This document shows positions 39,021-43,107 of a stretch of 64,000 nt of DNA, in pieces. The stretch comes from Halalkaliarchaeum desulfuricum (GTDB taxonomy: Archaea > Halobacteriota > Halobacteria > Halobacteriales > Haloferacaceae), in NCBI RefSeq assembly GCF_002952775.1, contig NZ_CP025066.1, positions 992,001 to 1,056,000 on the forward strand. Reading direction: 5' to 3'. The translations under genes and the position numbers were made by a program. A model generated the notes under the pieces. That model was not told where the DNA came from. It worked only from the letters and a program-made list of their open reading frames with translations, and did no database searches. Numbering within the stretch: position 1 is the first letter of the stretch; each line of letters begins with the position of its first letter.

Positions 39021-39179
39021 TCGCCCGCCGCGACGGAGATCGGTTGTACTTTTAACTCAGTTGTATCCTACTCCCATCCTTTCATATTCTCCAGCGTGTG
39101 CGGCTCCCCTTCCATACGGAACCTCGTCATTAATGAACATACAGACAAGATTAAGGACGTATGTGGCCTACGGCGTGCC

Positions 39180-40211
39180 ATGGAAACGCGAAAGGTGCAG
39201 CGGCTCGGTCCATCGACGCTGGCGATGACACTTCCGGCGGAGTGGACCAGGGAACACGACGTCGACAAGGGAGACGAGGTGTCGATCCGGATCGGCGGCA
39301 AGGGAACGTTGACGGTGCTGCCACAGTCGACAAGCACCGAGGAGTCCGAGGCGACCATTCACGCCGACGCGCTCGACGCGGACGCGCTGGAGCGGGCGAT
39401 CGTCGCCCAGTACGTGCTCGGCCGGCGGGTGATCCACGTCCGGCAGTCGGAGGGTGCACTCGACAGCGATCACATCAACGCCGTATATAAGGCCGAAACC
39501 CAGCTCATGGGACTCGGCGTCATCGAAGAGACCCCCGAAAGCATCGCCATCAGGTGTTCGGTCGACCCCGAGGACTTCACCCTGGACAACCTCCTCGAGC
39601 GGCTGGAAAACACCGGCTCGACGATGCGCGGGGAGGCGGTGAAGGCGCTCGCACACGGCAACCCGGACCTCGCACAGCGCGCGCTCAACCGCGAGCGGCA
39701 GGCGAACAAGATCTTCGTGCTCATGCTGCGGCTCATCTTTACCGCCTACCAGAACCCGAACCTCTGTCGGGCCGTGGGGCTGGAATCGGGGTTCCCGCTG
39801 ATCGGCTACCGATCGGTCGCAAAGAACCTCGAACTCACCGCGGACAACGCGGAGGACATCGCCGACATCGTCCTGGAGATCGACGGACACACCCTCGATA
39901 TCGACGGCGGAACGATGCGACAGATCCGCGAGTTCACGGACAGCGTCGACGAACTCACGAGCCTGGCGGTCCGATCGGTCGTGGAACGCGACTACGATCT
40001 CACGATCGAGTGTCGGGAGCTGTTCCGCGGACTCGCAGACCGCGAGCGGGAGATCCTCGACGACCTCCCGGAGCTGTCCAATCAGGAGCTGCTCCACGTC
40101 CGGGAAGTGCTGGTGAGCCTCCAGCAGACTGCCCAGTACGCGATGCGCAACGCCGAGATCGCGGCGAACCTCGCGCTCAACGAGGAATCCGAACACGTAG
40201 AAATTTCGTGA
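39180..40211 (+). CDS. PhoU-domain protein with N-terminal AbrB/SpoVT DNA-binding domain
   Basis: A 343-residue regulator. Residues 1-50 (METRKVQRLGPSTLAMTLPAEWTREHDVDKGDEVSIRIGG) form a SpoVT/AbrB-type swapped-hairpin DNA-binding domain. The rest holds two PhoU helical domains (EILDDLPELSNQELLHVREVLVSLQQTAQYAMRNAEIA). Archaeal proteins of this architecture regulate phosphate uptake. No Pst transporter is beside it, so the target is elsewhere or unknown. Confidence 0.9.
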   Translation: METRKVQRLGPSTLAMTLPAEWTREHDVDKGDEVSIRIGGKGTLTVLPQSTSTEESEATIHADALDADALERAIVAQYVLGRRVIHVRQSEGALDSDHINAVYKAETQLMGLGVIEETPESIAIRCSVDPEDFTLDNLLERLENTGSTMRGEAVKALAHGNPDLAQRALNRERQANKIFVLMLRLIFTAYQNPNLCRAVGLESGFPLIGYRSVAKNLELTADNAEDIADIVLEIDGHTLDIDGGTMRQIREFTDSVDELTSLAVRSVVERDYDLTIECRELFRGLADREREILDDLPELSNQELLHVREVLVSLQQTAQYAMRNAEIAANLALNEESEHVEIS

Positions 40212-40241
40212 GCGGCGCAGGCGACACCGCGGCTCCAGCGA

Positions 40242-41288
40242 CTAGCCCTCCCCGAACCCCGGCGGCTCGAACGGACACAGTTCGTCGGTTGCGAACGGGT
40301 TTCCGGTTTCCGCGTACGCACGGGCTCGGCTCCCGCCACAGATGTCCCGGTACGGACAGGCCCCACAGCGTCCTTCGAGGTTACTCCGGTCCCTGAGCTG
40401 TCGGAACAGGGAAGCTTCACGGTACGTCTCGACGATCGAACGCTCCCGAACGTTGTCCACGGATTTTCGAAACAACTCCGAGGGTTGAACGTTCCCCACG
40501 TGATCGACGTGGACGATGCCGTCCCCCGCGTAGGTTCCAAACTGGTCGCGGACACCGGTGACGATCTCCCCGCGCTGAATGGCGACCCGACGGTACTGGG
40601 GCGCCTCGATCGTCCGGACGTCGAACGGAGAGACGTTCGACGCCTCGTGGAGCCAGCGCATGATCGCGTCCGCGGTCGACGGATCGACGTTTTCGAGAGT
40701 GCAATCGGATGCCGGAATCACGAAAAACAGGTTCCACAGCACGATGTCTAGCTCCTCGATCCTGTCGCGAATCGCCGGCAGCTCCTCGAACGTTTCGCGG
40801 CTCACGACAGTGTTTACCCCCGCCGGCAAGCCCACCTCGCGTGCGGCTTCGAGCGTCTCGACTGCCGCCTCGAAGCTTCCGGGCGCCGAGCGAACCGCGT
40901 CGTGCCCCTCGGCGGTTGCTCCTTCGAGGCCGACAGCGAGACGATAGAGCCCGGCCTCCGAGAGGCGTTCGAGGCAGTCCAGGGAGATACCGCCCGACAG
41001 GGAGGCGTCGAGTGCGACAGTGAGCCCGATCCCGTTTCCGTATTCGACGAGTTCGAAGAGGTCGTCGCGTTCGAGCGGATCGCCACCGGAAAAGACGACG
41101 AGCAGTCCCTTCCCGAACTCCCGGAGGCTATCGAGCAGCCGTTTTGCCTCCTGGGTCGTCAGTTCCTCGGGATGTGGCTGCTCGGTCGGGTTCCGACGGC
41201 AGTTCGCGGAACCGACGCCGCCTGCCCGCGTGCTCTCCCAGGTCACGACGAGCGGTCTATCGTCGGTGTCTATTGCTTCCGATTTCAT
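40242..41288 (-). CDS. Pseudo-radical-SAM/SPASM domain protein
   Basis: A 348-residue haloarchaeal protein built like radical SAM/SPASM peptide or heme-modifying enzymes. The core barrel is recognisable (TWESTRAGGVGSANCRRNPTEQPHPEELT, VFSGGDPLERDDLFELVEYG, GVNTVVSRETFEELPAI). The C-terminal SPASM-like cysteine cluster CGACPYRDICGGSRARAYAETGNPFATDELC is intact. At the C-x3-C-x2-C site only Cys30 is left; the first two positions are Gly23 and Ser27. Thus the usual SAM iron-sulfur cluster cannot be held by three cysteines. A named haloarchaeal group of such pseudo-rSAM proteins exists. Confidence 0.88.
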   Translation of the reverse strand: MKSEAIDTDDRPLVVTWESTRAGGVGSANCRRNPTEQPHPEELTTQEAKRLLDSLREFGKGLLVVFSGGDPLERDDLFELVEYGNGIGLTVALDASLSGGISLDCLERLSEAGLYRLAVGLEGATAEGHDAVRSAPGSFEAAVETLEAAREVGLPAGVNTVVSRETFEELPAIRDRIEELDIVLWNLFFVIPASDCTLENVDPSTADAIMRWLHEASNVSPFDVRTIEAPQYRRVAIQRGEIVTGVRDQFGTYAGDGIVHVDHVGNVQPSELFRKSVDNVRERSIVETYREASLFRQLRDRSNLEGRCGACPYRDICGGSRARAYAETGNPFATDELCPFEPPGFGEG

Positions 41289-41427
41289 GCTCGTGAATTG
41301 ACCGATGAAGTCGGTGCTACCCGACGTTTGGCCCCTCAGGGGAATATAGTTCGATGCATGTTCTAACCGAATGAAAAAACCCCCGTACGGAAGAGGATCA
41401 AAAATCCACCCGTGGTCGGTACGCGAC

Positions 41428-41434
41428 TTTTTAA
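41428..41434 (+). promoter_or_regulatory. TATA box of the pilB-pilC-type operon
   Basis: TTTTTAA lies about 35 bp before ATG 41467. It lies downstream of the in-frame ATG at 41371, which therefore cannot be the start. Confidence 0.6.
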
Positions 41435-41466
41435 GTCCCCTCCTCCCGTTGTCGTATCCAAGCGAA

Positions 41467-43107
41467 ATGTCAGGTGAGCGCTCTACCGAGGAAATCGGTG
41501 GACTAACGCGGCGCATACGACACGTCTGGGAGCTGTTTCGGGGCTCGAATCTGGACGTGCGACCGTTCCGTCCGTCCACAGACGGAACGCTGTCGACGTT
41601 CACTCTGCCGCCGGGCGAACGGGAAGTCGAACGCTACTGGGTGAACGCTCCGTACGCATACGTCGTCATCACCTACGACGAGACCGAAAACGAACACCGA
41701 TACTACGCCGTCGAACCGGACCTCGACGAGTTCGGACGGGCACTGCTCGGCCGCGTCGTCGAGGACATCCGTGATCCGCTGTTGTTCCGGGAGGACATCG
41801 ATCCCATCGACGAGTCGACGCTCGGAGCCGAAGTGGAGTCGCTGCTCGAACAGTACGGGATAGAGCCCGACATGGCAACGTTTCACACGCTCGTATACTA
41901 CCTCCTCCGCGACTTCCAGGGGTACGGAAAGGTCGACCCCCTGTTGAACGACCCTCGTATCGAGGACATCTCCTGTGACGGGTACGATCTCCCGATATTC
42001 GTCTACCACGCGGAGTACACTGACGTCAAAACGAATATCTCGTTTCCTCCCACTGAGCTGGACAACTACGTCGTTCGGCTCGCCCAGCAGTCCGGCAAAC
42101 ACATCAGCGTCGGGGAGCCCATCGTCGAGACGACGCTGCCGGACGGCTCGCGTGCGGAACTGGCGTATGGCGAGGAAGTCACCCCACGGGGGTCGGCGTT
42201 CACCATCCGACAGTACGCCGAGGAGCCGTTCACGCCGATCGACCTGGTGAACTACGGGACGTACAACGTCGAGCAGATGGCGTACTTCTGGCTGTGTATC
42301 GAACACAACAAGTCGCTGATCTTCGCCGGCGGCACCGCGTCGGGGAAGACCACCTCGATGAACGCCGTCTCGATGTTCGTTCCGCCGCGGGCGAAGGTGC
42401 TGACGATCGAAGACACCCGGGAACTGTCGCTGTATCACGACAACTGGCTCTCGTCTATCACCCGGGAACGGCTCCAGGAAGGGGCCGACCTCGACATGTA
42501 CGACCTGCTCCGGTCGGCACTCCGTCATCGCCCGGAGTATATCATCGTCGGCGAGGTCCGCGGCGAGGAGGCGGTGACCCTGTTCCAGGCGATGAACACC
42601 GGCCACACGACGTTTTCGACGATCCACGCCGACTCGGTCCGGACCGTCATAAACCGGCTGGAGAACGAGCCGATAAACGTTCCCCGTGCGATGGTGCAGT
42701 CGCTCGACATGGTCGTCGTCCAGCGACTCGTCAGGTTCGACGACGAACGCCTCCGGCGAGCGAAGATCATCGGGGAGATACGCGGGATCGACCAGCGAAC
42801 CGGGGAACTGGATTACGCCTCGGCGTTCGACTGGAACCCCACATCCGACACCTTCTCCCGAAACGATTCGTCGTTGCTTTCGGAAATCCAGGAGGATCGG
42901 GCGTGGAGTCGGTCGGAGTTGCTCTCGGAGCTTCGACGTCGCGAGACGTTCCTCCGGAAACTCCAGGAGATCGGCGTGACCGGCTACCGTCGCTTTACCG
43001 CACTCGTAAACGAGTACTACGCCGATCCCGAACGGACGATGCGACGGCTCGAATCGGAGGTCGAGGCGGCCGGCGACGGGGCGACCGCCGGCGCCGAGGT
43101 CGACTGA
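41467..43107 (+). CDS. Type IV pilus/secretion ATPase (PilB/GspE, TadA-like)
   Basis: A 546-residue secretion ATPase that powers assembly of a type IV pilus-like filament. Walker A is AGGTASGKTTSMNAV (about 286-300). The Asp box, Walker B-type IIVGEVRGEEAVTLFQAMNTGHTTFSTIHADS, and the conserved KVLTIEDTRELSL are present. An N-terminal domain of about 180 residues comes before the core. The PilC-type membrane platform follows with a one-base stop/start overlap. No pilin, prepilin peptidase or other minor component is in the window. Confidence 0.93.
   Translation: MSGERSTEEIGGLTRRIRHVWELFRGSNLDVRPFRPSTDGTLSTFTLPPGEREVERYWVNAPYAYVVITYDETENEHRYYAVEPDLDEFGRALLGRVVEDIRDPLLFREDIDPIDESTLGAEVESLLEQYGIEPDMATFHTLVYYLLRDFQGYGKVDPLLNDPRIEDISCDGYDLPIFVYHAEYTDVKTNISFPPTELDNYVVRLAQQSGKHISVGEPIVETTLPDGSRAELAYGEEVTPRGSAFTIRQYAEEPFTPIDLVNYGTYNVEQMAYFWLCIEHNKSLIFAGGTASGKTTSMNAVSMFVPPRAKVLTIEDTRELSLYHDNWLSSITRERLQEGADLDMYDLLRSALRHRPEYIIVGEVRGEEAVTLFQAMNTGHTTFSTIHADSVRTVINRLENEPINVPRAMVQSLDMVVVQRLVRFDDERLRRAKIIGEIRGIDQRTGELDYASAFDWNPTSDTFSRNDSSLLSEIQEDRAWSRSELLSELRRRETFLRKLQEIGVTGYRRFTALVNEYYADPERTMRRLESEVEAAGDGATAGAEVD

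Follow-up and report, generated by a model that had tools for sequence, protein, structure and literature searches.

As judged from its sequence, the AhbD-like protein encoded at one locus of the window (the whole 64,000-nucleotide stretch of Halalkaliarchaeum desulfuricum DNA analysed; Table 1) has lost two radical-cluster ligands together with many barrel residues that do not otherwise vary, whereas its four AuxII ligands are under very strong constraint. This cysteine-loss variant is known from two species of one genus, and it is very probably a pseudoenzyme that retains AuxII only. Its radical-SAM site reads TRA-G23-GVG-S27-AN-C30, with two of the three cluster ligands gone, and since the three-cysteine cluster is missing, the usual cleavage of SAM is not expected on established chemistry. 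The original prediction had reported G23, S27 and C30 in place of C-x3-C-x2-C, and the sequence, the homolog set and the sister ortholog all bore this out. It had also described the SPASM-side cysteines as intact, which held for C308, C311, C317 and C338 of AuxII but not for the AuxI-type cysteines, which the protein lacks in common with most of its family. Only the AuxII (Twitch-like) part of a SPASM domain, with four cysteines, is therefore present, and the protein lacks the full SPASM motif of seven to eight cysteines and two auxiliary clusters. Those four cysteines match the AuxII motif of AhbD, CX2CX5CX20-38C, as defined in the accessible part of PMC10452713. The same source describes most non-methanogen AhbDs as likewise having the AuxII cysteines only, with two serines and one glutamate at the AuxI positions, and E228, S270 and S320 are retained in the pseudo protein.

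Table 1. Features of the pseudo-radical-SAM locus and its neighbours (positions in the window)
Feature	Position	Strand	Remark
Pseudo-radical-SAM gene, AhbD-like (TIGR04053 relative), 348 aa	40242..41288	-	Ortholog in sister species
Degenerate radical-SAM cluster site, G23, S27, C30	41199..41222	-	C/C/C in 125/125 other homologs
AuxII motif, intact, C308-X2-C311-X5-C317-X20-C338	40275..40367	-	dN/dS 0.018, residues 300-348
C105, cysteine uncommon in the family	40974..40976	-	Common to both species
C196, new cysteine replacing a Gly invariant in 125/125	40701..40703	-	Common to both species
H260 (Phe in nearly all relatives) and H263 (invariant)	40500..40511	-	
TATA-like element AACTATATTC, 5' of the pseudo gene	41342..41351	-	Kept in sister species; putative promoter role
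Neighbour: PhoU-domain protein, AbrB/MazE-like N-terminus	39174..40211	+	Context only
Neighbour: PilB3-type secretion/pilus ATPase, divergently transcribed	41467..43107	+	Context only

The ortholog in the sister species (G001, the sole other genome of the genus compared) is 84% identical, has the same neighbours, reads G23/I27/C30 at the cluster site and has GGN where the family has GGD. The start codon and the upstream TATA-like element are kept between the two species, and the frame is open in both at a dS of about 0.41. A sequencing error, which the original prediction had named as what might undo it, could be ruled out because the first and second cysteines are missing in the sister species too. 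The radical site was C/C/C in all 125 other homologs read, and 124 of them had all four AuxII cysteines; these counts refer to distinct fetched sequences rather than to every match, identical ones having been dropped, as was a shorter copy (L009) in favour of L077. A separate pass over 109 loci gave 108 C/C/C sites and a single G/I/C, that of the sister species. When 391 genomes of the class were searched, only this genome (G000) and the sister genome scored about 785 bits, the next best match reaching 401, and no ortholog was seen outside the genus among them; 247 of the 391 matched at E 1e-90 or better, and the cysteine site was read in a minority of these. The change goes well beyond the cluster ligands. 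At 44 of the 143 columns conserved to at least 95% the pseudo protein departs from its relatives, in 40 cases in both species and in 33 to the same residue, which places the greater part of the change before the two species diverged. The departed positions include H29, S120, D122, T161, C163 and the GRG of residues 194-196, several of which we take to line the SAM site of the fold.

The distribution of substitutions between the two orthologs was strongly graded along the chain. Their dN/dS (Nei-Gojobori, two sequences per pair, codon bias uncorrected) was 0.212 overall, and fell from 0.557 over residues 1-60 and 0.487 over residues 1-120 to 0.172 (121-240), 0.055 (241-348) and 0.018 (300-348). 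An intact pair from the same two species (L038/L039) gave 0.09 overall and a flat profile over the corresponding stretches (0.135, 0.091, 0.071, 0.082 and 0.071). Amino-acid differences within the pseudo pair amounted to 33/120 against 6/107 (p 8e-6), and over residues 1-120 the intact pair differed at only 9/120 positions as against those 33/120 (p 7e-5). These results indicated that constraint is relaxed in the SAM half and maintained in the half carrying the AuxII cluster, which agrees with the earlier proposal of a pseudo-radical-SAM protein with cluster ligands in its C-terminal domain only. The losses of conserved columns, however, were not confined to the SAM half (32/97 in residues 1-240, 12/46 in 241-348, p 0.44). 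Taken with the dN/dS gradient, this suggests a protein that was changed throughout at its origin and in which present-day constraint falls chiefly on the C-terminal half.

As to its family, the pseudo protein matched the Pfam Radical_SAM domain (PF04055) with 57.4 bits against a gathering cut-off of 29.5. Its best NCBIfam match was TIGR04053 (350.5 bits, and 360.1 for the sister ortholog), below the curated cut-off of 395, followed by AhbD (TIGR04545, 230.5 bits against a cut-off of 500) and then NirJ2; four intact haloarchaeal relatives likewise stayed under the TIGR04545 cut-off, with 287-338 bits. TIGR04347, the named haloarchaeal pseudo-SAM family to which the original prediction had pointed, came below three other families, with 148.2 bits against a cut-off of 525. 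The scores thus describe an AhbD-like protein that lies below every curated cut-off shown and does not belong to the named pseudo-SAM family, and the right comparison is with TIGR04053 and AhbD. With the haloarchaeal AhbD-like proteins of TIGR04053 (here L038 and L040) it shares the fold, the AuxII motif and the same E228, S270 and S320 in place of AuxI cysteines; unlike them, it has no CX3CX2C, and 40 of the 143 otherwise conserved columns are changed in both species. The AuxII motif is also common to AhbD (TIGR04545, including Methanosarcina barkeri AhbD), from which the pseudo protein differs in having no radical-SAM site. In a quick tree, which carried a long-branch warning, the pseudo pair grouped together (SH-aLRT 99), its long stem (1.87) setting it away from both of its own paralogs, and the idea that an intact paralog was recently duplicated within the genus found no clear support.

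An AlphaFold2 model of the pseudo protein (mean pLDDT 86.9, pTM 0.87) had SPASM-type radical SAM proteins as its nearest solved folds, with PqqE (6c8v) first in Foldseek (E 1.3e-17) and SuiB (5v1s_A) matching at Z 26.6 and an rmsd of 3.6 over 325 residues. The model gave no evidence of a collapsed cluster loop; because the same loop was similarly uncertain in an intact Natrinema homolog modelled as control (pLDDT of block 21-30, 63 vs 69 between the two models), the predicted structure is mute on the loss of the cluster.

The setting in which the intact relatives occur is that of heme synthesis. Haloarchaeal TIGR04053 proteins look like AhbD, the enzyme converting coproheme to heme. In the accessible parts of the papers, an alignment of AhbD proteins includes one from Halorubrum lacusprofundi (PMC10452713), Haloferax volcanii requires its ahbD gene (HVO_2144) only when growing anaerobically (PMC5746218), and haloarchaea are reviewed as using an alternative heme route (PMC8305020). 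A TIGR04053-like protein, defined by a best match to the pseudo protein at E 1e-60 or better, was found in 40 of 60 relatives: in all 26 genomes with an AhbC-type TIGR04347 protein (E 1e-100 or better), in 11 of the 15 with a full-length HemE (G023, G042, G045 and G053 having none) and in three with neither marker (G005, G047 and G049), so that 37 of the 40 holders also carry a marker of the coproheme route. The two markers were mutually exclusive over the 60 genomes (TIGR04347 in 26, full-length HemE of the URO-D type in 15, both in 0, neither in 19; p 4e-5). This genome and its sister have no AhbA/B, and their HemE adjoins a ferrochelatase and is accompanied by ChdC (G000:C1:1522421-1524518, L200). 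The heme route of the two species is of the coproporphyrin type, and our literature search found no paper describing such a route in haloarchaea. Two intact TIGR04053 paralogs are present in this genome (L038 and L040) and two also in the sister species. A protoporphyrinogen-oxidase-like gene (TIGR00562, 135.2 bits against a cut-off of 97.85; L045:8349-10974) comes just after L040 in the same orientation, and the two are likely a heme operon. The surroundings of the other paralog, L038, include an HTH_10 regulator and, from a respiratory complex, NrfD and ferredoxin-type subunits (L043:4783-11620), a setting resembling that of H. volcanii ahbD beside anaerobic respiration genes.

Around the pseudo gene itself, a PhoU-like gene is followed by the pseudo gene and pilB3 in the two species of the genus, that is, at 2 of the 14 PhoU loci read, and in the 12 other genomes read neither the pseudo gene nor pilB3 was found within 1.5 kb of the PhoU locus. 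The PhoU-like gene and the gene preceding it stay paired in most relatives read, and the genes that follow vary (window positions 39174-43107). As the arrangement with the pseudo gene and pilB3 was seen only in this genus, the neighbourhood was rejected as a clue to function.

Our preferred reading, which we put forward tentatively and at a little less than an even chance when taken as a whole, is that of a pseudoenzyme derived from an AhbD-like (TIGR04053) protein, with one C-terminal AuxII [4Fe-4S] cluster, working non-catalytically and independently of SAM as a tetrapyrrole carrier or sensor. The ancestor would have been an AhbD-like radical SAM heme synthase that lost the radical-cluster ligands and kept those of AuxII, leaving an AhbD-like barrel fold that may carry a single C-terminal [4Fe-4S] cluster and work without SAM. 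The ligand would most likely be a tetrapyrrole, coproheme or heme, held by a carrier or a sensor, with AuxII as a redox or structural switch. This reading draws on the loss of the first two cysteines in both species and in 0 of the 125 other homologs read, on the fall of dN/dS from the N- to the C-terminus that the intact pair does not show, on TIGR04053 and then AhbD as the nearest families, on the company of TIGR04053-like proteins with the coproheme route and on the intact paralog adjoining a porphyrinogen oxidase gene. The cluster state it proposes corresponds to that of an engineered protein: when M. barkeri AhbD is deprived of the radical-cluster residues C23 and C26 together with its AuxI ligands, one [4Fe-4S] cluster remains, according to the accessible part of PMC10452713, which also reports that binding of FeCopro by M. 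barkeri AhbD requires neither auxiliary cluster, as tested with the radical cluster present. The engineered AhbD retained the AhbD substrate pocket, however, and in the pseudo protein the pocket is partly changed: residues 258-262 and 271-274 (strand/loop), fixed in AhbD-like relatives, differ, so that coproheme may no longer be accommodated in it. Against the reading stand also the lack of a heme gene adjoining the pseudo gene, the departures from conserved columns outside the SAM half and the restriction of the carriers to two genomes. The handling of coproheme or heme, considered on its own, is a possibility we would hold with some reserve. A role as heme chaperone is proposed by analogy only, with HemW and CgdH2, radical-SAM-superfamily heme chaperones related to a heme-pathway enzyme (PMC10320005, accessible part); the likeness would be one of function and not of descent, as these proteins belong to the HemN branch rather than to AhbD and CgdH2 keeps its cluster motif. 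The 'peptide carrier' of the original prediction found no support, no maturase or precursor-peptide context having been noticed.

Other uses of such a protein can be imagined. It might pair with an intact TIGR04053 paralog and tune heme synthesis, or pass electrons via AuxII, with no ligand of its own; the two intact paralogs in both species and the location of the conserved part in the C-terminal half speak for such a partner or regulator, but the pseudo gene adjoins neither paralog and its pocket is altered, and we regard this as unlikely. We consider it improbable that this is an Fe-S protein responding to redox state or iron in a role apart from heme, such as that of a sensor which acts on the adjacent genes of PilB3 or PhoU type: the AuxII ligands held at a dN/dS of 0.018 and the divergent promoter region with pilB3, partly conserved in both species, would fit it, but Pfam revealed no DNA-binding domain in the pseudo protein, and gene neighbourhood by itself, in two closely related species, carries little weight. 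There is a very slim chance that the metal site has been rebuilt, C30 joining the newly gained C105 and C196, and perhaps the likewise new H260, in another kind of cluster or metal centre at the barrel mouth, coupled to AuxII in a new enzyme. In the predicted secondary structure C30, C105 and C196 all follow the ends of barrel strands, and C196, in place of the invariant glycine, and the rare C105 are both fixed in the two species; yet C30 lies within the fast-drifting part, and the two new cysteines may be due to chance. If true, an old fold would have given rise to a new metalloenzyme through the relocation of its ligands. Slimmer still is the chance that we are looking at a decaying copy heading to a pseudogene, as the relaxation of residues 1-60 could suggest, since the frame remains open in both species at a dS of 0.41, dN/dS is 0.21 overall and 0.018 at the C-terminus, and the upstream element is conserved. 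Membership of TIGR04347, for which the NCBIfam name 'pseudo-SAM/SPASM protein' might be invoked, was ruled out by the score and is further contradicted by the three cysteines found in all 28 sequences of that family read.

TIGR04347 is haloarchaeal and belongs to the same wider superfamily as the pseudo protein. Of 29 TIGR04347-type loci fetched, 28 cover the site, and all of these (L048-L075) have an intact CX3CX2C and GGE, which means that, despite its 'pseudo' name, the family is not cysteine-less in this sample. One of them (L048) scored 747.6 bits to TIGR04347 and 449.5 to AhbC (TIGR04546, cut-off 650); TIGR04347 is probably the haloarchaeal AhbC, H. volcanii HVO_1121 is likely a TIGR04347 protein, and no protein over the TIGR04347 cut-off was found in this genome or the sister species. 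The 'pseudo-SAM/SPASM' label may thus mislead annotators. In a literature search judged by titles and the beginnings of abstracts, and with most subscription journals outside its coverage, no paper was found on the pseudo protein, on TIGR04347, on TIGR04053 or on pseudo-radical-SAM proteins, and the radical SAM pseudoenzyme papers that came up were unrelated. With the label corrected, it is the named pseudo-SAM family that has the cysteines, in the 28 sequences read, and an unnamed AhbD-like pair that lacks them.

AuxII is the conserved auxiliary cluster in AhbD; the accessible part of PMC10452713 calls the role of this cluster "enigmatic" and describes AhbDs with AuxII alone as unstudied. In the pseudo protein the radical cluster has been lost in evolution and the AuxII region kept at a dN/dS of about 0.02, a pattern suggesting that AuxII serves some purpose apart from radical chemistry. 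The protein is in this sense a natural separation-of-function variant, one that can be expressed and assayed by published methods.
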